Below, one piece after another: positions 25,897 to 34,252 of a stretch of DNA of 64,000 bases. The stretch's first letter is position 1. Each line of letters starts with the position of its first letter. Both the position numbers and the translations under genes were made by a program. Origin of the DNA: Celeribacter litoreus. Lineage in GTDB: Bacteria; Pseudomonadota; Alphaproteobacteria; Rhodobacterales; Rhodobacteraceae. A model generated the notes under the pieces. It worked only from the letters and a program-made list of their open reading frames with translations. It was not told the origin of the DNA and did no database searches. The stretch is taken from assembly GCF_020165855.1 (NCBI RefSeq), contig NZ_JAIUFY010000013.1, forward strand, positions 124,001 through 188,000, in the 5' to 3' direction.

Positions 25897-26634
25897 ATGG
25901 CAAAACCGATCATGGCAAAAGCCACCGCCGTCTGGCTGGTTGATAACACCACGTTGAGCTTCAAACAGATCGCCGATTTCTGCGGCCTGCACGAGCTTGA
26001 AGTTCAAGGCATCGCTGACGGTGATGTTGCTGGCGGTGTGCGCGGGTTTGACCCCATTGCGAACAACCAGCTGACGGCAGATGAGATCAAAGCTGGTGAG
26101 GACAACCCGCTTCACCGTCTGAAACTCAAATTCAACGCTGCTGCGACCGGCGAAGAAAAGCGTCGCGGCCCGCGTTACACTCCGCTGTCCAAGCGTCAGG
26201 ATCGTCCGAACTCGATCCTGTGGCTCGTGAAGTTCCACCCGGAGCTGACCGACGGCCAGATCGCGAAACTCGTGGGCACCACGAAGCCGACGATCCAGTC
26301 GATCCGCGAGCGCACGCACTGGAACATCGCAAACATGCAGCCGATCGATCCGGTTGCTCTCGGCCTGTGTAAGCAGTCCGAACTCGACGCAGCCGTTCAA
26401 AAAGCCGCGAAGAACCGCGAAGCCGGCATGACCGACGACGAGCGCCGCAAGCTCCTCTCCACCGAGGATTCTCTGGCTGCCGAAGCAGAGCCGAAAATCC
26501 CGACGGCGATCTCCGGTCTCGAAGCCTTCTCCCTCTCCGGTTCGGATGACGAAGAAGAAAAAGACGAGAGCGTTCCGGATGCGGACAGCTTCTTCAACCT
26601 GCCTGATAACGGGGACGACGAAGACGAGGATTGA
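25897..26634 (+). CDS. trcR: TrcR (DUF1013) transcription-associated protein
   Basis: The 245-aa product opens MAKPIMAKATAVWLVDNTTL and matches DUF1013, an alphaproteobacterial family whose Caulobacter member TrcR was described as tracking with RNA polymerase and affecting the cell cycle. Helix-turn-helix-like segments are visible (SFKQIADFCGLHELEVQGI and LTDGQIAKLVGTTKPTIQSI). The C-terminal 50 residues are strongly acidic. AAGGAGTG precedes the ATG. A strong terminator follows, marking the left border of the hydrogenase locus. Confidence 0.85.
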   Translation: MAKPIMAKATAVWLVDNTTLSFKQIADFCGLHELEVQGIADGDVAGGVRGFDPIANNQLTADEIKAGEDNPLHRLKLKFNAAATGEEKRRGPRYTPLSKRQDRPNSILWLVKFHPELTDGQIAKLVGTTKPTIQSIRERTHWNIANMQPIDPVALGLCKQSELDAAVQKAAKNREAGMTDDERRKLLSTEDSLAAEAEPKIPTAISGLEAFSLSGSDDEEEKDESVPDADSFFNLPDNGDDEDED

Positions 26635-26665
26635 TCCTCTCTCGTTCCATCAGGACCGCAATTTG

Positions 26666-26697
26666 AGACCCCTGCCGGAGAAATCGGGCGGGGGTCT
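26666..26697 (+). terminator. Terminator of trcR
   Basis: AGACCCC (26666-26672) and GGGGTCT (26691-26697) form the base of the stem, extended inward by TGCC/GGCG-type pairs, and TTTTTT follows. Confidence 0.85.
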
Positions 26698-26785
26698 TTT
26701 TTATCCACTTTGATGCGGCTCAAGGAGGGTGAAGGCGCGTCGGAGTAAGACGCAAGGCAAGTCACTACTTCACGGGGATTGATCG

Positions 26786-27088
26786 ATGTGCCTCGCCTAT
26801 CCAATGAAAGTCGTCTCGCGTGACGGCATAAACACCGCAACCTGTGAAAAGGATGGCGAGCTGCACTGCGTGGATACGACGTTCTTATCAGAGGTTCAGA
26901 TTGGTGATTGGGTCACGGTGCATCTCGGGATTGCGCGTGAGGTGATGACAGAGGCAGACGCCCGCCAAATCCTCGATGCGCTGCACGCGCTGGACATGGT
27001 CAAGCAGGGCGAAACGCAGGTCGATCATCTGTTTGCGGACCTCATCGGGCGGGAGCCGCCGCGGCCTCCGAGCGCCGACTCTGACTAA
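26786..27088 (+). CDS. hypC: [NiFe]-hydrogenase maturation chaperone HypC/HupF
   Basis: HypC-family chaperones carry the Fe(CN)2CO group with HypD and hold the hydrogenase large-subunit precursor. The 100-aa product begins MCLAYPMKV with the essential Cys2 exposed after Met removal. The beta-barrel core contains IGDWVTVHLGIA. The C-terminus has a 20-residue Pro/Glu/Asp-rich extension, more like HupF than short HypC. It stands 289 bp upstream of the structural operon in the same direction. No hypA, B, D, E or F gene is in the window. Confidence 0.92.
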   Translation: MCLAYPMKVVSRDGINTATCEKDGELHCVDTTFLSEVQIGDWVTVHLGIAREVMTEADARQILDALHALDMVKQGETQVDHLFADLIGREPPRPPSADSD

Positions 27089-27377
27089 ATTTATAGGCTT
27101 TGCGCATGAGATTTTGCGTCATGCGCATTAGGAAAGTTGGTTTCCGGTGTTGGTGTTTGGTTGGTAGGCGAGTTTTCGGTTTTTGGGCGGGCCGAGAGGC
27201 GCCATGTCGATCTGAATCTCTATTTTATTATTTAGTTTCAATGTTCTGAGCGATTAAGGCTGGGTTCTCAGGGTTCTTTGTGCAAGACATGACCACGTTT
27301 GTCCTAGCGCAAAGTTTTCGGACCTCGGATTAAAATATTCTCAGAATGTAATATTTGCGAAAGTCTGGGAGGCGAAC
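27089..27377 (+). promoter_or_regulatory. AT-rich leader of the hydrogenase operon
   Basis: This 289-bp spacer is clearly less GC-rich than its surroundings and has no credible gene. It holds a 9-bp hairpin at 27101-27127 (TGCGCATGA/TCATGCGCA) close to the hypC stop, a T-rich middle (27220-27245), and ATTCTCAGAAT (27337-27347), a perfect 11-bp palindrome flanked by AATATT motifs about 30 bp before hupD. I found no sigma-54 -24/-12 pair and no FNR box. Confidence 0.55.
27101..27127 (+). repeat. 9-bp inverted repeat after hypC
   Basis: TGCGCATGA and TCATGCGCA enclose a 9-nt loop 12 bp past the hypC stop. A terminator role is possible, but no T-run follows. Confidence 0.5.
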
Positions 27378-27890
27378 TTGGACACGGCAAAGCATTTGGG
27401 CCATCTGAACGTGCTCGTCATGGGTGTTGGAAACTCACTTTTGACGGACGAGGCGGTGGGTCCGCAGGCGATCAAACGGTTTCAAGAAGCCTACGGCGAA
27501 CTGCTAGGCGTCAGCCTGCTCGACGCAGGAACGCTCTCCTTCACCCTCGCCGATGAGATTGGCGCAGCAGATGCTTTGATTGTGTTCGATGCGGCGCGAC
27601 TGAATGCGACGGTGGGCAGCGTTCGGGTCCTTGAAGGCAAAGAGATGGACGACTTTGTCCGCTCCGGAAAGCTCACCGTGCATGAAGTCGGCCTGACAGA
27701 CCTTTTGGACATGGCGCGGATGACGGGAGACTTGCCCGCCCGTCGCGCCTTGGTCGCGATTGAGCCAGCGCATGTTGGATGGGGATTGGAACTCAGCCCC
27801 GCGGTTGAGGCCGCCATGCCCACGGCGATCCAGATGGCGCACGACGTTCTGAGCCGCTGGAACGCGGAATGTGTGGAGGCCGCGCAATGA
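27378..27890 (+). CDS. hupD: [NiFe]-hydrogenase maturation endopeptidase (HupD/HyaD family)
   Basis: This protease trims the C-terminus of the large subunit once nickel is in place. The 170-aa product has the family block LVMGVGNSLLTDEAVG (acidic residue for nickel sensing), DAGTLSF with the second Asp, and VHEVGLTDLL with the His ligand. The start is taken as TTG at 27378, with GGGAGG 5 nt before; the first ATG (27420) lies inside the conserved beta strand and would truncate it. The stop overlaps hupH by 4 bp. Confidence 0.88.
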   Translation: MDTAKHLGHLNVLVMGVGNSLLTDEAVGPQAIKRFQEAYGELLGVSLLDAGTLSFTLADEIGAADALIVFDAARLNATVGSVRVLEGKEMDDFVRSGKLTVHEVGLTDLLDMARMTGDLPARRALVAIEPAHVGWGLELSPAVEAAMPTAIQMAHDVLSRWNAECVEAAQ

Positions 27891-28303
27891 CCGATCTGAC
27901 ACTCAAAGACTTCATGCCGAAACCCGAAACGGGCAACGTCATCCTGCTCCTCAACGAAATTCGCCATGCCCTGCGTCATCTCGCAGAGACCGGAGAACCC
28001 ACGACGATTGATCTGAGCGGAATCCCGATGACCAAGGCGGAAACCGAAGAATTCGAAGCCGCACTCGGCACGGGCGAAGTGCACGCGGAGATCGACGCGG
28101 GCGGACCTTCTGAGGTCATTGAAACGAGCTTTGCCGGTGTCTGGCGCGTGATCCATCGCGCCTCCGAGGAAATGACCCTCGCCCGTTACATCGAGGTCAC
28201 CCGAATTCCCGAAATACTGGTCGCGCACCCGTCCGACATGCGCGCCGCACTGACCCGTCTCGAAGCCAGATTGGAACTTTCCAGCGAGGAGGAGGCCCTA
28301 TGA
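27887..28303 (+). CDS. hupH: Hydrogenase expression/formation protein with one HupH C-terminal domain
   Basis: The 138-aa product matches a single HupH_C-type domain (about residues 18-130), including ALRHLAETGEPTTIDL, FAGVWRVIHR and VTRIPEILVAHPSD. HupH of rhizobia is about twice this length and helps mature the hydrogenase, perhaps protecting the small subunit from oxygen. Here only one domain is present. It overlaps hupD upstream and hynS downstream by 4 bp each, so it would be made in step with the small subunit. Confidence 0.75.
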   Translation: MTDLTLKDFMPKPETGNVILLLNEIRHALRHLAETGEPTTIDLSGIPMTKAETEEFEAALGTGEVHAEIDAGGPSEVIETSFAGVWRVIHRASEEMTLARYIEVTRIPEILVAHPSDMRAALTRLEARLELSSEEEAL

Positions 28304-29400
28304 CAAAAACCGATTTAACCTTAGGGGATCGACTACAGGCGCGAGGTGTCTCGCGGCGGGCCTTCCTCAAATATTGCGCGACCACTGCTTCATTGCTCGC
28401 CCTGCCGCCAACCATGGTGCCGCACATTGCGAACGCCCTAGAAAGTCAACGGCGACCGTCGGTCATCTGGCTCTCCTTCCAGGAATGCACGGGCTGCTCT
28501 GAGTCGATCTTGCGATCCAATACGCCGTCGATTGAGAGCATGATCTTCGAGACCATCTCGCTCGACTACCACCACACGATCATGGCCGCCTCCGGCCATC
28601 AGGCCGAAGAAGCCCGCAAGATCGCGATGGAAGAGAATTGGGGCAACTACCTCGTGATCGTCGACGGCTCTGTGCCGACCGGCAACATGGGCTATTCCAC
28701 CACGGCGGGTGAGAGTAACATCGACACGCTCAAACACGTCGCCGAGGGCGCGGCCGCGATCGTTTGTATGGGCACCTGCTCCGCATTTGGTGGCATTCCT
28801 TATGCGAACCCGAACCCGACCGATGCGGTCGCCGTTTCTGACGTGATTAAGGACAAGCCCATCGTCAATGTTCCGGGCTGTCCGCCGATCCCCGCCGTTA
28901 TGACATCCGTTCTCGCGCATTACCTCGCCTTCGGTGAGTTGCCGGAGCTTGATCACCTGAACCGGCCCAAAGTTTTTTACGGTCAGAATATCCACGACCG
29001 CTGCTATCGCCGCCCATTCTATGAACGCGGACAGTTTGCAGAAAGCTTTGATGATGAGGGCGCCAAAAAAGGCTGGTGCCTCTACAAACTCGGTTGCAAA
29101 GGCCCGACGACCTACAACGCCTGCGCTGTTCTCAAATGGAACGAGGGCACGAGTTTCCCAATCGAAGCCGGTCACGGGTGCCTCGGCTGTTCCGAGCCGA
29201 ACTTCTGGGATGCGGGTAGCTTCTACAACCCGCTGTCCACGGCCACGCATCTCGATGCCGGAACCGTTGCTTTGGCCGGTGCTGTCGGCGTCGGCGTTGG
29301 CGCTGCGGCTGGTGCAGCCGCCCGCAGCCAGCAGAAGAAAATCAAAGCCGCACCCGCGAAAGCGTTCACCCCAACAAAAGCCGAGGAGGAGAGCCAATGA
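28300..29400 (+). CDS. hynS: [NiFe]-hydrogenase small subunit with Tat signal (Isp type)
   Basis: The small subunit holds three Fe-S clusters that pass electrons from the active site. The 366-aa product starts with a Tat signal (SRRAFLK at 18-24). The proximal cluster region is QECTGCSES with C63 and C66 and Gly65 between them, so the six-Cys cluster of oxygen-tolerant enzymes is not indicated. Later come CMGTCSAFGG, GCPP, HDRCYRR, LYKLGCKGPTTYNAC and GHGCLGCSEPNFW. The C-terminus has an Ala/Gly/Val-rich helix (about 325-342) that could anchor it. The order hynS-isp1-isp2-hynL is that of Thiocapsa-type Isp hydrogenases. Confidence 0.93.
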   Translation: MTKTDLTLGDRLQARGVSRRAFLKYCATTASLLALPPTMVPHIANALESQRRPSVIWLSFQECTGCSESILRSNTPSIESMIFETISLDYHHTIMAASGHQAEEARKIAMEENWGNYLVIVDGSVPTGNMGYSTTAGESNIDTLKHVAEGAAAIVCMGTCSAFGGIPYANPNPTDAVAVSDVIKDKPIVNVPGCPPIPAVMTSVLAHYLAFGELPELDHLNRPKVFYGQNIHDRCYRRPFYERGQFAESFDDEGAKKGWCLYKLGCKGPTTYNACAVLKWNEGTSFPIEAGHGCLGCSEPNFWDAGSFYNPLSTATHLDAGTVALAGAVGVGVGAAAGAAARSQQKKIKAAPAKAFTPTKAEEESQ

Positions 29401-30053
29401 CATTGCTCGAATTCGCGCGTGGCCCTGCGCTACAGTGGGCTGCTGTGATCTTTGTCATCGGGATGCTCTGGCGCACCTTGGGGCTGCTTTTGATGCTGCG
29501 CTCAAGACCTCTTTCGAAGGACCGTAAAAAGGGTCTGGCTGGCGCTGGCGTGAAAACGATGTTCTCGCGCTTCTTGCTCCCGAAAGTCTTCGCAAAGCGC
29601 GTTGGCTTCCAATACTTGCTTGGCTGGATTTGGCACGTTGGCTTCGTGTTGACGGTGTTCTTCTTCCAGGTCCATGTGATGTTCTTCAAAGGTCTCGTCG
29701 GCTTTGGCTGGCCCGCACTTCCGAACTCCGTCGTCCTTCCGGTTGCCGCCGTTTCGCTCGGCATTCTCGTGATCCTGCTCGTGCGCCGGATGACGAACCC
29801 GATGCTGCGCTACATCTCTAACTTTAACGATTATTCGAGCGTGATCGTCACGATCCTGCCGTTTGCGACAGGCTTCGCGACCTTCACCCACATCGGGGTC
29901 CTGCCCTACGAAACACTGCTCGCGCTGCACTTCCTGTCCGTCGCGCTGCTGCTCGTGTGGTTCCCGTTCTCGAAATTGTTCCATGTCATAACCGTGCTCC
30001 CGTCCCGCTATATTCTGGGAGTGAAATTCTGGCGTCGGGGGGTTGAAGCATGA
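29397..30053 (+). CDS. isp1: Isp1-type membrane cytochrome b subunit (NarI/DsrM-like)
   Basis: The 218-aa product has about five hydrophobic helices (around residues 12-32, 70-95, 105-127, 150-165, 172-190) and histidines suited to haem b (H80, H93, H165 and H179 region), resembling the gamma subunit of nitrate reductase. Isp1 would take electrons from Isp2 or the small subunit to the quinone pool. It is placed between the small and large hydrogenase genes with 4-bp overlaps at both ends. The helix bounds are read by eye. Confidence 0.82.
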   Translation: MTLLEFARGPALQWAAVIFVIGMLWRTLGLLLMLRSRPLSKDRKKGLAGAGVKTMFSRFLLPKVFAKRVGFQYLLGWIWHVGFVLTVFFFQVHVMFFKGLVGFGWPALPNSVVLPVAAVSLGILVILLVRRMTNPMLRYISNFNDYSSVIVTILPFATGFATFTHIGVLPYETLLALHFLSVALLLVWFPFSKLFHVITVLPSRYILGVKFWRRGVEA

Positions 30054-31435
30054 CCGAAGTCATCACCAAACAAGAACGCGAGGAAGCCTTTGCCATGTTC
30101 TACGGCATGGCGGCGAGTATCGGCGAATTGGCCGACCCTGCCCCTGAAATGACTGACGAGGAACGTGTCGAACGCGCCAAGGAGGTCTTCCTCAAAGGCA
30201 TCGACAATAACGTCGCGGTGCAGCTTGATGCATGCCTCCACTGCGGCGCGTGTGCGCAGGCTTGCCAGTTCTTCATCGGAACCGAAGACCCGAAATACAC
30301 GCCGATCCACAAACTCGATCTGCTGAAGAAGGTCTACAAACGCGAACTGAGCCCGCTGAGCTGGCTGCTCAAGCCATTCACACCGGATATCACAGTGGAA
30401 GACCTGCGGAACCAGGTGGAGCTTGTCTATGACAGCTGCACAATGTGCGGGCGCTGCAATATGGTTTGCCCGTCCGCGATCAACATCGGCGATCTTGTGT
30501 CGCTGAACCGCTCCGCGATGGCGGCGGCGGGTCTGGCTCCTGCCGAATTGCGTTACATGCGGGATGGTCAGGAGGCCGATGGCACGATCTTTGGGGCCGA
30601 CGAAGACCTGTTCATGTTCCGCATTCAGGACATTCAACAGAAGCTCGGTTTCGAGATCCCGCTGAATAAGAAGGGCGCGGATGTTCTTCTTATGACGTCC
30701 GGCCTCGATATTCACCTCTTCGCAGACGCGACGGGTGGGGCCATTGAGACTCTGCATCATATGGGCGTGGACTACACTCTCGCGACAGACGCATATGAGG
30801 GGGCGAACTTCGGGTCGTTGTCTGGGTATGACGCGACCAAGAAAAAGCTGACCAAGCACAGCACCGAAGCCATCGAAGCACTTGGCGTGAAAACCGTAAT
30901 CGTGCCGGAATGCGGTCACTCCTATCCGGCGCTACGTTTCGGCGCGGCGGAGGCCATGGGGCGTCCTGTCAATTTCGAGGTGATGACCGTGTCCGAATAC
31001 TTCGGGCGTGCCGTGATGGATGGTCGTCTGAAGCTCGAAAAGAAAAGCCACCCGAAACCGATTGCGCTGCATGATCCGTGCAAGGTTGGTCGTTGGGGCG
31101 GCGTGTTTGATGAGCCGCGCGAGATTCTCAAGGCCTGCGGATATGACCTGCACGAAACTGAATCCAACCGTCAGTATAACTTCTGCTGCGGCGGCGGTGC
31201 AGCGAACTTCCTGTTGCCGTCTGCCGACAAACTCAAACGCGTTGGCTACCGTGTGAAAATGGGCGAGATCGAAGCCGCTGGTGCCGAAGAGCTCGTCGTG
31301 TCCTGCGGATCCTGCCGGATGAATTTCGAAGTCGGCAAAGTCAAAGCAGGCGACTCTATTCCAGTCGAAAGCCTCGCCGCCATCATTGCAGCACACCTTC
31401 CGAAAAAAGAGACAGTCGAGGGAGATAAGGTATGA
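30050..31435 (+). CDS. isp2: Isp2-type iron-sulfur protein (HdrD/DsrK-like)
   Basis: The 461-aa product has two [4Fe-4S] motifs, CLHCGACAQAC (C62, C65, C68, C72) and CTMCGRCNMVC (C130, C133, C136, C140). Two C-terminal CCG-type domains follow; the second has HDPCKVGRWGG, NFCCGGG and SCGSCRMNF. This is the heterodisulfide-reductase HdrD/DsrK architecture of Isp2, thought to link the hydrogenase to Isp1 on the cytoplasmic side. It overlaps isp1 and hynL by 4 bp each. Confidence 0.87.
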   Translation: MTEVITKQEREEAFAMFYGMAASIGELADPAPEMTDEERVERAKEVFLKGIDNNVAVQLDACLHCGACAQACQFFIGTEDPKYTPIHKLDLLKKVYKRELSPLSWLLKPFTPDITVEDLRNQVELVYDSCTMCGRCNMVCPSAINIGDLVSLNRSAMAAAGLAPAELRYMRDGQEADGTIFGADEDLFMFRIQDIQQKLGFEIPLNKKGADVLLMTSGLDIHLFADATGGAIETLHHMGVDYTLATDAYEGANFGSLSGYDATKKKLTKHSTEAIEALGVKTVIVPECGHSYPALRFGAAEAMGRPVNFEVMTVSEYFGRAVMDGRLKLEKKSHPKPIALHDPCKVGRWGGVFDEPREILKACGYDLHETESNRQYNFCCGGGAANFLLPSADKLKRVGYRVKMGEIEAAGAEELVVSCGSCRMNFEVGKVKAGDSIPVESLAAIIAAHLPKKETVEGDKV

Positions 31436-33153
31436 GCGAACGTATCGTTGTCGATCCTATCACACGGATCGAAGGGCATTTGCGCATCGAGGCGCAGATG
31501 GACGGCGACAAAATCGCCTCCGCCTACTCCTCCGGGACTTCTGTGCGCGGGATCGAAGTTATCCTGAAGGGCCGCGACCCACGCGACGCTTGGGCCTTCG
31601 CGCAGCGGATTTGCGGGGTTTGCACATTGGTGCACGGCATGGCCTCTATTCGGTCTGTTGAGAATGCGCTGAACTATGAAATTCCGCAGAACGCGCAGAT
31701 CATTCGGAACCTGATGATCGCAGCACAGTTTGTGCATGACCACGTGATGCACTTCTACCACCTGCATGCGCTAGATTGGGTGGATGTGGTTTCCGCGCTT
31801 GATGCTGATCCGAAAGCAACTTCGGAACTGGCGCAGTCGATCTCCAAACATCCGATGTCCTCGCCCGGATATTTCGCCGATGTTAAGGCACAATTGAAGG
31901 GCTTTGTCGAAACCGGACAGATCGGGATTTTCGCGAATGGCTACTGGGGCCATCCGGGTTACAAACTGCCACCCGAAGCCAACCTCATGGCCGTCGCGCA
32001 CTATCTCGAAGCGCTCAAATGGCAGCGCGAAATTGCCAAGCTGCACGCGATCTTTGGCGGTAAAAACCCGCACCCGAACTTTGTCGTCGGCGGCGTTCCT
32101 TCGCCGATTGATCTGAATTCGGATAGCGCAATTAACGCTGAAAAGCTGCAAAAAGTCGCTGATATTATCAAAATGGCACGCGATTTTGTCGAAAATGTCT
32201 ACGTGCCGGATACTTTGGCCATCGGGTCTTTCTACAAAGACTGGGCGTTCAAAGGTGAGGGTCTCGGCAACTTCATGTCCTACGGTGAATTCCCCGCCGC
32301 AGGGTATGGCGATGCTTCGACTAATCTCGTTCCGGCAGGCGTGATCCTCGATCGTGATCTCTCGACCATCCACGACATCGACCTGAATGCGCCGGACCAG
32401 ATTGAAGAGTACGTGGCGCACTCTTGGTATGACTATGAAGGCGGGAAAGACAAAGGGCTTCACCCCTATGACGGTGAAACGGCCCTGAACTACACAGGTC
32501 CGCAGCCGCCTTACACACATCTCGATGTTGAGGGCGCCTATAGCTGGATCAAATCCCCGCGTTGGAAAGGGCATGCTGTCGAAGTCGGCCCGTTGTCCCG
32601 CGTCTTGATGATGTATGCCTCGGGTCATGAGCAGACGAAGGAGCTCGTCGATAGTTCGCTTCGGACGCTTGACCTTCCGGTTGAGGGGCTGTTCTCGACG
32701 CTCGGTCGGGTCGCGGCGCGGACGCTTGAAACCAAGGTCATCGTGGATGCGATGCAGGGTTGGTACGACGCCCTTATCGCGAACATCAAAGCGGGTGATA
32801 CCAAGACGTTCAACGAGACGCTTTGGGAACCGTCTAGCTGGCCGAAGAAGGCGCAAGGCGTTGGGTATATGGAAGCCCCGCGCGGCGGCCTCGGCCACTG
32901 GATCGTCATCGAAGATGGCAAGATTGCCAACTATCAGGCCGTGGTGCCGTCCACATGGAACGCCGGTCCGCGCGACGAAAAAGGCCAGTCTGGCGCTTAC
33001 GAAGCCGCGCTTCAGGACAACCACGTCATGGAAAATCCGGATCAGCCGCTCGAGATTTTGCGCACGATCCATAGTTTCGACCCATGCCTCGCCTGCGCTG
33101 TCCACGTGATGGACCCCGACGGCAAAGAGCGCCTGCAGGTCAAAGTCTCTTGA
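31432..33153 (+). CDS. hynL: [NiFe]-hydrogenase large subunit
   Basis: The catalytic subunit holds the Ni-Fe(CN)2CO centre. The 573-aa product has the N-terminal ligand motif RICGVC (C61, C64) and the C-terminal motif DPCLACAVH (C552, C555, H558). Fifteen residues follow His558 and should be removed by HupD. The rest matches group 1 uptake enzymes, starting MSERIVVDPITRIEGHLR. It has no signal of its own and would be exported with the Tat-bearing HynS. It is the last structural gene, 42 bp before the SCP-2-like gene. Confidence 0.95.
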   Translation: MSERIVVDPITRIEGHLRIEAQMDGDKIASAYSSGTSVRGIEVILKGRDPRDAWAFAQRICGVCTLVHGMASIRSVENALNYEIPQNAQIIRNLMIAAQFVHDHVMHFYHLHALDWVDVVSALDADPKATSELAQSISKHPMSSPGYFADVKAQLKGFVETGQIGIFANGYWGHPGYKLPPEANLMAVAHYLEALKWQREIAKLHAIFGGKNPHPNFVVGGVPSPIDLNSDSAINAEKLQKVADIIKMARDFVENVYVPDTLAIGSFYKDWAFKGEGLGNFMSYGEFPAAGYGDASTNLVPAGVILDRDLSTIHDIDLNAPDQIEEYVAHSWYDYEGGKDKGLHPYDGETALNYTGPQPPYTHLDVEGAYSWIKSPRWKGHAVEVGPLSRVLMMYASGHEQTKELVDSSLRTLDLPVEGLFSTLGRVAARTLETKVIVDAMQGWYDALIANIKAGDTKTFNETLWEPSSWPKKAQGVGYMEAPRGGLGHWIVIEDGKIANYQAVVPSTWNAGPRDEKGQSGAYEAALQDNHVMENPDQPLEILRTIHSFDPCLACAVHVMDPDGKERLQVKVS

Positions 33154-33195
33154 TCCGTGTCCTGCACGGGGCATGGAATTTGAAAGGAAGAAGAA

Positions 33196-33594
33196 ATGAG
33201 TGAACTTTTCTCATCAGAATGGATGGCCGGTTTCGCGAAAGAGTGGAATGCCGATCCTGCATTGAGCGGTGCTCTGGCGGAGATCGGGTTCAGCTCGACC
33301 ATCGCCTACGGGTTCGCCGGAGATGACACTCCGAAAGGCGTTCTCGTGGTCGAAAACGGTCAAGCCGTCTCCTCCGGCGATTATGACGGGCAGGAACTCA
33401 ACTGGGATATCCGTATGCCAGCCGCCAATTGGGATACATGGATGAAGAAACCGCCGAACATGATGACGCTCGGCGTGGCCTACACCACCGGTAAGCTGAA
33501 GTTCGTCGTTGGGGATTACTCCGCTATGATCAAAGACCCGCGCATGGCTGGACCCTTTATCAAGAGTTTTGCGGCTATGTCTAAGGTCGTCTGA
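33196..33594 (+). CDS. SCP-2 sterol-transfer-like small protein at the end of the hydrogenase operon
   Basis: The 132-aa product shows the SCP-2 fold pattern: MSELFSSEWMAGFAKEWNAD, a central strand pair KGVLVVENGQ, DWxx-type segment ELNWDIRMPAANWDTWM, and the end GKLKFVVGDYSAM. SCP-2 domains bind hydrophobic ligands. An AAGGAAGAAG site precedes the ATG. The gap of 42 bp to hynL and the terminator right after it place it in the hydrogenase transcript. Its role there is unknown; binding a lipid or quinone-like ligand is a guess. Confidence 0.72.
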   Translation: MSELFSSEWMAGFAKEWNADPALSGALAEIGFSSTIAYGFAGDDTPKGVLVVENGQAVSSGDYDGQELNWDIRMPAANWDTWMKKPPNMMTLGVAYTTGKLKFVVGDYSAMIKDPRMAGPFIKSFAAMSKVV

Positions 33595-33620
33595 CGGCCA
33601 AACAGAGCACTCTTGATAGG

Positions 33621-33653
33621 AAACGCCCCCCGGCACCCGGTTGGAGGGCGTTT
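33621..33653 (+). terminator. Terminator at the right end of the hydrogenase locus
   Basis: AAACGCCC (33621-33628) pairs with GGGCGTTT (33646-33653), extended inward by a few more pairs, and runs into TTC. It may also stop recR transcripts on the minus strand. Confidence 0.75.
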
Positions 33654-33658
33654 TCGAT

Positions 33659-34252
33659 TCATAGACGTTTGCGCGCCGTGAGTGCTGCGGTGATCGTCCC
33701 GTCGTCGAGGTAATCGAGTTCTCCGCCGACCGGCACACCCTGCGCGAGGGAACTCACTGTGCAGCGCTCGCCCAATTCGTCAGAGATGTAATGGGCTGTC
33801 GTCTGACCGTCCACGGTCGCACTGAGTGCAAGAATAACTTCGCGAATATCCTCGTCGCGAACCCGCTGAACTAAGGCAGGGATACGCAGATCCTCTGGTC
33901 CAATCCCGTCGAGCGCAGAGAGCGTCCCGCCCAAGACGTGGTAGCGGCCTTTGAACACCTGCGCGCGTTCCATGGCCCAGAGATCGGACACGTCTTCAAC
34001 GACGCAAATCTCGCCGGACGCCCGACGATCATCCGCGCAAATATCGCAGAGGTCGCCCGTGCCGATATTTCCGCAGCGGACGCATTCACGCGCATTGTCG
34101 GCCACTTGTTGCATGGCGGTCGCCAGTGGATGCATCAGGCGGCCACGTTTTTTGATGAGGTGCAGAACGGCGCGCCGCGCGGAGCGGGGCCCAAGCCCCG
34201 GCAACCGCGCCATGAGATCAATCAGATCTTCTATCTCTTGCCGACCGCTCAC
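33659..34252 (-). CDS. recR: Recombination protein RecR
   Basis: RecR works with RecO/RecF in loading RecA at gaps. The 197-aa product has the N-terminal helix-hairpin-helix ([11 protein letters not shown]), the zinc motif [16 protein letters not shown], and the Toprim domain with CVVEDVSDL and the Walker-like end [11 protein letters not shown]. The start is GTG at 34252 with TGAGG upstream. It follows ybaB by 8 bp in the common dnaX-ybaB-recR order. Confidence 0.96.

Follow-up and report, generated by a model that had tools for sequence, protein, structure and literature searches.

The window analysed here, a 64,000-nucleotide (64-kb) stretch of the genome of Celeribacter litoreus, harbors at positions 26786–33594 eight genes, all on the + strand, that together specify a [NiFe]-hydrogenase of the Isp type and lie between trcR on one side and recR on the other. 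The genes are, in order, hypC, hupD, hupH, hynS, isp1, isp2, hynL and a gene for a protein with a predicted SCP2 fold, and all of their reading frames are open. We consider it likely that they form a complete and working Isp-type (group 1e-like) operon that is portable, that depends on Hyp proteins encoded elsewhere, that belongs to a distinct sub-branch and that includes a recruited carrier of a hydrophobic ligand. We base this reading on the gene content of the locus, the clade to which the enzyme belongs, the presence of hyp genes elsewhere in the genome, an insertion that is specific to this genome, the fold of the last protein and the context of its family. The operon is real and intact, and it is probably functional.

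An earlier note on this DNA had described eight genes running in one direction from trcR to recR, and the coordinates of the open reading frames (ORFs), together with matches to Pfam and NCBIfam models, agree with that description. The features are as follows.

25897–26634, + strand: trcR, left flank (PF06242, 212 bits)
26665–26703, + strand: hairpin and T-run between trcR and hypC, terminator-like (RNA fold −27.5 kcal/mol)
26786–27088, + strand: hypC/hupF, HypC-family chaperone (PF01455, HupF_HypC, 71 bits; TIGR00074, above cut-off)
27299–27314, + strand: 16-bp box TTGTCCTAGCGCAAAG of the TTG-N8-CAA type in the hypC-hupD gap, candidate regulator site
27378–27890, + strand: hupD/hynD, large-subunit endopeptidase, TTG start (PF01750, 77 bits; TIGR00072, above cut-off)
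27887–28303, + strand: hupH, assembly factor (PF04809, HupH_C, 96.6 bits)
28300–29400, + strand: hynS, small subunit with a signal of the twin-arginine translocation (Tat) type (TIGR00391, 450 bits; TIGR01409, Tat, 21 bits)
29397–30053, + strand: isp1, membrane cytochrome-b-like anchor of a variant class (NF045723, TmcC, 88.8 bits, below cut-off; tree)
30050–31435, + strand: isp2, of a variant class whose N-terminus is extended; two [4Fe-4S] motifs and a CCG domain (PF13183, PF02754)
31432–33153, + strand: hynL, large subunit (PF00374, NiFeSe_Hases, 794 bits)
33196–33594, + strand: SCP2-fold protein of 132 aa (predicted fold; no signal peptide apparent by eye)
33619–33655, + strand: hairpin downstream of the SCP2 gene, its 3′ arm rich in T, terminator-like when read on this strand (RNA fold −23.7 kcal/mol)
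33659–34252, − strand: recR, right flank (TIGR00615, 207.6 bits)

By profile, HupD belongs to the HycI/HupD-type proteases. Isp1 is TmcC/HmcE-like and Isp2 is DsrK/TmcB/HmcF-like (200.9 bits against NF045796, DsrK), both scoring under the curated cut-offs of the models.

We found the same arrangement, which we refer to as the compact cassette and define as hupD, hupH, hynS, isp1, isp2, hynL and SCP2 in this order without hypABDEF, in seven genomes: this one (G000), a second member of the genus (G003), Thioclava pacifica, Sinirhodobacter ferrireducens (G449, G696 and L074 being counted as one genome), S. hankyongi, and two metagenome-assembled genomes (MAGs), one from Hydrogenophaga and one from the Sphingomonadales. 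An eighth SCP2-type locus, L088, from a gammaproteobacterial MAG, is rearranged and includes hyp genes of its own, and PF00374 matches just once in the genome that it comes from. In L088 (8048–14471), hupD-hupH-hynL on one strand opposes hynS-isp1-isp2-SCP2 on the other.

The five consecutive junctions from hupD through hynL each consist of a 4-bp overlap, as the earlier note had stated and as the coordinates confirm; the overlapping letters are ATGA. Exact 4-bp overlaps occur at 9 of the 44 same-strand neighbour pairs of the window, and 5 of those 9 are here. All five are also present, by gene coordinates, in G003; an in-frame start codon stands at the 4-bp position at 5/5 junctions in the Hydrogenophaga MAG and at 4/5 in T. 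pacifica, both Sinirhodobacter species and the Sphingomonadales MAG. The terminators claimed for both borders fared less evenly, in that the + strand hairpins at 26665–26698 (z −4.9) and 33619–33655 (z −4.1) each beat every shuffled sequence (0/200 as good), but a generic terminator scan listed neither. Read from the recR side (− strand), the right-hand hairpin was unremarkable (z −1.3; 21/200 shuffles as good). Matches to promoter/terminator consensus patterns numbered 1 versus 2.4 expected and 10 versus 7.1 expected, and were set aside. An RNA element within the locus was considered and rejected, the region 26500–33800 having no Rfam match at gathering score.

The assignment of the enzyme to the Isp type rests on the tree of its large subunit. 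(Note that the HynL, Isp1 and Isp2 trees are quick trees, with support from the Shimodaira–Hasegawa-like approximate likelihood-ratio test only.) In this tree, the check that had been proposed for the Isp-type call, HynL groups with the HynL proteins of Thiocapsa and other Isp enzymes, split from nine group 1d-like HupL rows at a starred support of 100; it thus lies inside the Isp clade and not outside it. The HynL proteins of the seven compact cassettes form one group (99, starred), whereas that of L088 clusters with two other gammaproteobacterial HynL proteins, apart from the other SCP2-type HynL proteins. According to HydDB as cited in PMC7735108, group 1e enzymes are bidirectional, O2-sensitive and linked to sulfur respiration. 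HynL contains the motifs RICGVC and DPCLACAVH and carries a 15-aa C-terminal extension after His558, the residue up to which the mature chains of solved enzymes (e.g. 3myr_B) align; the best-scoring solved enzyme was 3myr (3myr_A for HynS). HynS combines its Tat-type signal with, by sequence reading, a proximal-cluster motif of the four-Cys type, ECTGC, and a hydrophobic C-terminal stretch. The motif CTCC, of the O2-tolerant six-Cys type, is absent from HynS, whereas the HupS protein of the same genome reads ECTCC. Going by the usual meaning of these motifs, the genome presumably pairs an uptake hydrogenase of the O2-tolerant type with an ordinary four-Cys Isp enzyme.

The membrane and electron-transfer components tell a different story from HynL. 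The eight SCP2-type loci come together as a single group both for Isp2 (100, starred) and for Isp1 (92), and in both trees 24 canonical rows make up a single clade (100, starred) that excludes the proteins of the window; we label Isp1 and Isp2 as variant because they lie outside this clade. Of 88 loci, the 69 in which all four proteins are full-length served to compare identities, pairs of other loci with one another coming from a random draw of 250 and the SCP2-type set numbering nine, counting L074 and its duplicate L184. Where HynL identity is 75–80%, Isp2 averages 64% identity between other loci (112 pairs) and 33% between SCP2-type and other loci (219 pairs). In the Thiocapsa roseopersicina locus (L133, group 1e), which shares the order HynS-Isp1-Isp2-HynL, HynL is 76% and HynS 61% identical to the window's and the Fe-S cysteines of Isp2 are kept, but Isp1 and Isp2 are only 35% and 31% identical, and that 19.7-kb locus has no match to SCP2, HypC or HupD. 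The ligand cysteines of the Isp2 clusters align in 25/25 rows. As judged from these comparisons, the enzyme has a conserved catalytic half and an electron-transfer half that belongs to a different branch. When exchange of the HynL module against the Isp module was tested, the approximately unbiased P values were 0.029 and 0.044; the test was post hoc, made with the tree already known and without the long row L188, and an exchange is only suggested.

These data bear on how far the resemblance to Thiocapsa extends. The earlier note's description of the gene order as that of Thiocapsa holds for that order and for HynL, but not for Isp1 and Isp2, which fall in a different branch. The locus could accordingly be viewed as an ordinary, canonical Thiocapsa-type group 1e hydrogenase in which the divergent Isp1 and Isp2 and the additional SCP2 gene amount to lineage noise and serve no function, as the gene order, the 75–76% identity of HynL to Thiocapsa HynL and the retention of the Isp2 cysteines would allow. 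We regard this as distinctly improbable, given how much further Isp2 has diverged than HynL predicts, the exclusion of the window's proteins from the canonical clade in both Isp trees, and the presence of the SCP2 gene in all seven members of the starred HynL group, a gene whose family keeps 32 positions unchanged in all 39 sequences compared.

What most sets the locus apart is its last gene, a point that the first reading of the sequence had missed. The name SCP-2 gene used there is borne out by the fold but not by domain models, since neither the protein nor those of its relatives that were tried match any Pfam or NCBIfam model at E ≤ 5; an ordinary Pfam SCP2 protein was therefore rejected. 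An AlphaFold2 model built from seven sequences, the best of five, had a mean predicted local distance difference test (pLDDT) score of 93.6. In Foldseek searches this model matched the SCP2 protein of Thermus (2cx7) with a TMq of 0.78 and UbiJ-SCP2 chains with E values of 9e-5 to 4e-4; the first 16 of 17 PDB matches at E ≤ 0.001 were sterol-carrier-type or UbiJ-SCP2 chains (one of them, 3cnu, titled only AF_1534) and the 17th was an alkylsulfatase. A link to defence was also considered and rejected, as PADLOC gave no match for the SCP2 protein, Isp1 or Isp2.

Outside hydrogenase loci, relatives of this protein keep other company. A profile of the family found members in 41/398 genomes of the phylum, and in each of the non-hydrogenase loci examined (29/29) a gene for a periplasmic adaptor of a resistance-nodulation-division (RND) efflux system lies on the same strand, its alignment starting 19–485 bp downstream. 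(The 29 loci comprise 28 from the phylum, L205–L232, and one from G380, L156; ten further phylum matches without a locus fall outside the count.) The HlyD and ACR_tran domains of the RND neighbours were checked on examples. A plasmid collection yielded three relatives, two in Pseudanabaena and one in Kovacikia, all cyanobacterial and 54–59% identical. These pairs of SCP2 and RND-adaptor genes, in genomes of the same phylum and on cyanobacterial plasmids, resemble the window in the SCP2 protein itself (54–65% identity) and differ from it in the partner, which is the efflux adaptor, and in Pseudanabaena also a flavoprotein resembling sulfide:quinone oxidoreductase (SQR) and a rhodanese, rather than a hydrogenase. 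On the Pseudanabaena plasmid (L152:9280–17721) the relative occurs with ArsR regulators, the SQR-like flavoprotein, the rhodanese and an RND pump, a run of genes that suggests a sulfide-responsive unit; this copy is annotated as an SCP-2 sterol transfer family protein, and the relative in Kovacikia has, by tblastn, the same neighbours. In open-licence literature in PubMed Central (PMC) we found nothing that links SCP2 proteins to hydrogenases or to sulfide:quinone oxidoreductase and, among the papers listed, nothing that joins them to RND or sulfur genes. In the tree of the SCP2 proteins the eight hydrogenase-linked proteins occupy one side of a branch (91/84), and the simplest account would be that this hydrogenase branch acquired its carrier in one recruitment, out of an RND context.

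The locus contains no hypA, hypB, hypD, hypE or hypF, just as had been reported, and the earlier note had concluded that it must either borrow maturation genes or be unable to mature. The whole-genome search that it had called for (3.66 Mb in 16 contigs, 99.6% complete) showed HypA, B, C, D, E and F in a single hup/hyp cluster on another contig, C8, at approximately 987–1005 kb. By gene calls the order there is hupUV-hypF-hupSLC-DFGHJK-hypAB-hupR-hypCDE, with HypF, HypA, a CobW/HypB-type protein, HypC, HypD and AIRS-type HypE domains confirmed by Pfam; the other hup names are assumed from gene order, and the protein called HupK has no Pfam match. The genome has one HypD and, by PF00374, three genes of the [NiFe] large-subunit type in four matched stretches, namely HynL, a full-length HupL and HupV, the latter two both on C8. 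Because HypABDEF are present on C8, the cassette could be matured by borrowed Hyp proteins, and the first of the two outcomes is thus available to it, whereas the full hyp set speaks against inability.

Borrowing of this kind already has precedent, since PMC3102683 describes hydrogenase accessory genes of Thiocapsa as distributed throughout the genome; maximal activity of a related HynSL in E. coli required HypCABDFE, HynD, HupH and Orf2, and accessory proteins are said there to be usually specific, yet able to act on close relatives. The HypC of the cassette is 41% identical to the resident hupF product and 31% to the resident hypC product; between the HupD of the cassette and the resident one the identity is 31%, and all three resident genes are on C8. 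This divergence fits reports in PMC12134894 that HypC paralogues (e.g. HybG) and endopeptidases recognise their cognate large subunit; HypA paralogues can also confer specificity according to the same source. The cassette probably depends on the resident Hyp proteins, although it is not assured that such borrowing works here. The missing hypABDEF might be taken to mean that the locus is a non-functional import, stranded in a host unable to mature its enzyme. In our view this is highly improbable: the full hyp set lies on C8, every frame is open, and HynL is 90% identical in amino acid sequence between this genome and G003 despite differences at 0.48 of fourfold sites, a pattern that implies purifying selection.

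The other compact cassettes were compared in the same respect. Each of the seven genomes has exactly one HypD, on a contig other than the cassette's in 6/7 and within the nearby hup cluster in G003, and each encodes, away from the cassette, a second [NiFe] large subunit of full length. The protease and HupH are present in 7/7 cassettes, and a HypC match in 4/7. The cassette of T. pacifica DSM 10166 (L149) carries all eight genes in an unchanged order (HynL 87% and SCP2 83% identical), with HypD and a second large subunit elsewhere, but differs in Isp2 (72–73%) and in its genomic site, where ORFs read by eye are ATP-synthase-like. The cassettes of S. ferrireducens and S. hankyongi (L074, L075) likewise keep the order from hupD to SCP2 (HynL 82%), with HypD and a second large subunit elsewhere, but have no adjacent HypC match and sit among flagellar-type ORFs. 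By the same kind of reading, the neighbours are hup genes in G003 and a mod-like ABC operon in the Hydrogenophaga MAG. Within the family, 39/295 genomes have a large subunit at E ≤ 1e-100, and in seven of these it is at least 68% identical to this HynL. Two canonical Isp loci of the family adjoin hyp genes (G466, by tblastn; G026, by gene calls). We also noted by eye that Isp loci in two other genera of the family adjoin Hdr-, TusA-, DsrE- and DsrC-like sulfur genes (L186:2875–6249 in G603 and L039:10131–12556 in G026).

Comparison within the genus indicates that the position of the cassette is particular to this genome. Of 20 genus members, G003 is the only other one with this hydrogenase, and its cassette sits approximately 14 kb from hupL. 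The gene trcR was found in 19/19 relatives searched, with recR close by in 18; the exception was G006, where a search over 1.5 kb from trcR found no recR. The gap between the two genes is 51–91 bp in 16 relatives, 491 and 509 bp in two, and 7,024 bp here, and the hydrogenase is missing between them in 18/18. (The gaps of 491 and 509 bp belong to G010 and G011; L060, L061.) Because the gap is small in the relatives, the insertion is specific to this genome among those compared, and the trcR-recR spacing check suggested at the outset therefore came out in favour of an insertion.

The earlier note's further notion of a recent island was not supported, if recent is taken to mean that foreign DNA arrived there lately. 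Fourfold-site differences between this genome and G003 are 0.39–0.76 for the cassette genes, as against 0.40–0.64 for 18 hup/hyp genes and 0.43 for trcR, and the G+C content of the island is 0.570, compared with a mean of 0.582 (range 0.564–0.597) for 44 segments of the same size outside it. Neither measure points to foreign DNA of recent arrival. The 64-kb window contains no tRNA, and no integrase, transposase or recombinase was seen by eye at the borders in the ORF list, a transposase library not having been scanned. The insertion site is new in this genome, and the DNA of the cassette does not look newly foreign.

The gap between hypC and hupD, which is AT-rich (G+C 0.45), contains the candidate regulator site, a 16-bp box that was found by aligning this gap from G000, G003 and T. 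pacifica. In a search of 190 loci the exact sequence TTGTCNTARCGCAAAG stood before hupD in these three cassettes and nowhere else, the cassettes of Sinirhodobacter, Hydrogenophaga and the Sphingomonadales lacking it in that exact search; its exactness in the three gaps is by construction, because the box was read from them. Among 10 genomes searched, it occurs once each in G000, G003 and T. pacifica, and a reversed control pattern gave up to 2 matches per genome at 1 mismatch. In the whole genome of C. litoreus four places lie within 1 mismatch of the box, none of them inside the hup cluster, and the idea of a site in common with that cluster was rejected, as L005 (hupU to hupL) has no match at up to 3 mismatches. 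The box possibly serves as a regulator site and may resemble a site of the FNR/CRP family. In G000, G003, G005 and G007 (L196, L199–L201) a gene that looks LysR-type by eye is preceded by a copy with one mismatch (TTGTGTTAGCGCAAAG).

How such an enzyme might work can be outlined from its parts. HynSL would be exported by the Tat pathway and handle H2 on the periplasmic side, Isp1, a cytochrome b, would exchange its electrons with the membrane, and Isp2, a DsrK-like Fe-S protein, would exchange electrons with a cytoplasmic partner. The cassette itself would supply the factors specific to this enzyme (the HypC chaperone, the HupD protease and HupH), with HypA, B, D, E and F taken from the resident hup/hyp cluster. 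As no export signal is apparent, the SCP2 protein should act on the cytoplasmic side, with Isp2; it would probably bind a hydrophobic ligand and serve the Isp1/Isp2 end, possible ligands being a quinone, a lipid or zero-valent sulfur. It is from these considerations that we infer that the enzyme is active, that it uses the resident Hyp proteins, and what the SCP2 protein binds and does. More tentatively, and as a possibility on which we place rather little weight, a carrier taken once from an RND-efflux context (in cyanobacteria an apparently sulfide-linked one) may ferry a hydrophobic redox partner, a quinone or zero-valent sulfur/polysulfide, to or from Isp1-Isp2, in a cassette that moves between sites and genomes and depends on the resident Hyp proteins.

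Several observations weigh against the reading of the locus as a working, Hyp-dependent operon with a recruited carrier. For the SCP2 protein, the other four AlphaFold2 models reached pLDDT values of only 67.8–80.3, the carrier role is drawn from fold and context only, the hydrogenase-linked group in the SCP2 tree is not starred and includes the long row L088, the family profile was found in 2/385 genomes of the class, the window's own included, and the Pseudanabaena flavoprotein scored 82 bits as an SQR, below the cut-off of 525. The SCP2 gene was present in 6 of 80 HynL loci from named collections and missing from 74, of which 65 have at least 1 kb of sequence after hynL (in the other 9, with less than 1 kb, absence was not judged). 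As regards maturation, a HypC match is lacking in three of the seven compact cassettes, a second hypA-hypB copy stands beside the G003 cassette, and the search for nickel-uptake genes that had been proposed returned a HupE/UreJ-type protein, a possible nickel permease, on contig C9, but no NicO transporter match in the genome. (On its own contig C9, L038:4802–6964, G003 has the SCP2 gene followed by hupK and this second hypA-hypB, which over 1.28 kb shares 94% identity with the hup-cluster copy; the hup cluster of G003, by gene calls and unlike that of G000, has no hupK between hupJ and hypA.) As regards descent, the genus relatives nearest by HupL, G015 and G016, have no cassette, so that losses and transfers are both possible, and the co-occurrence of the cassette with HupL within the genus (2/5 versus 0/15) involves too few genomes to count alone.

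The scarcity of the SCP2 gene among Isp loci implies that the Isp enzyme type as such does not need the protein, and this also bears on whether the protein might be a helper in the maturation or assembly of HynS/HynL rather than a ligand carrier of the redox chain. Its gene closes an operon rich in assembly factors, and the related HynSL mentioned above needs Orf2, described in PMC3102683 as a helper of unknown function. We nevertheless find an assembly role unlikely: most Isp loci manage without the gene, and the other family members examined adjoin RND efflux genes, not hydrogenases, which indicates that the protein was probably not a hydrogenase helper by origin.

If the locus is indeed an operon with a recruited carrier, it would bear on a question that concerns Isp hydrogenases in general, which link H2 with the chemistry of sulfur or quinones by way of Isp1-Isp2, a module of which little is understood. 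In this sub-branch the catalytic half is conserved, Isp2 is different and a presumed carrier with an SCP2 fold has been added, a combination that opens the coupling to experimental test. The cassette further illustrates, in nature, which maturation factors accompany an enzyme (the protease and HupH in all seven cassettes, the chaperone in four) and which may be borrowed, a distinction useful when such enzymes are moved between hosts. Finally, it points to a family of SCP2-like proteins of approximately 131 residues, without a match in Pfam or NCBIfam, that lies beside RND pumps in many genomes.

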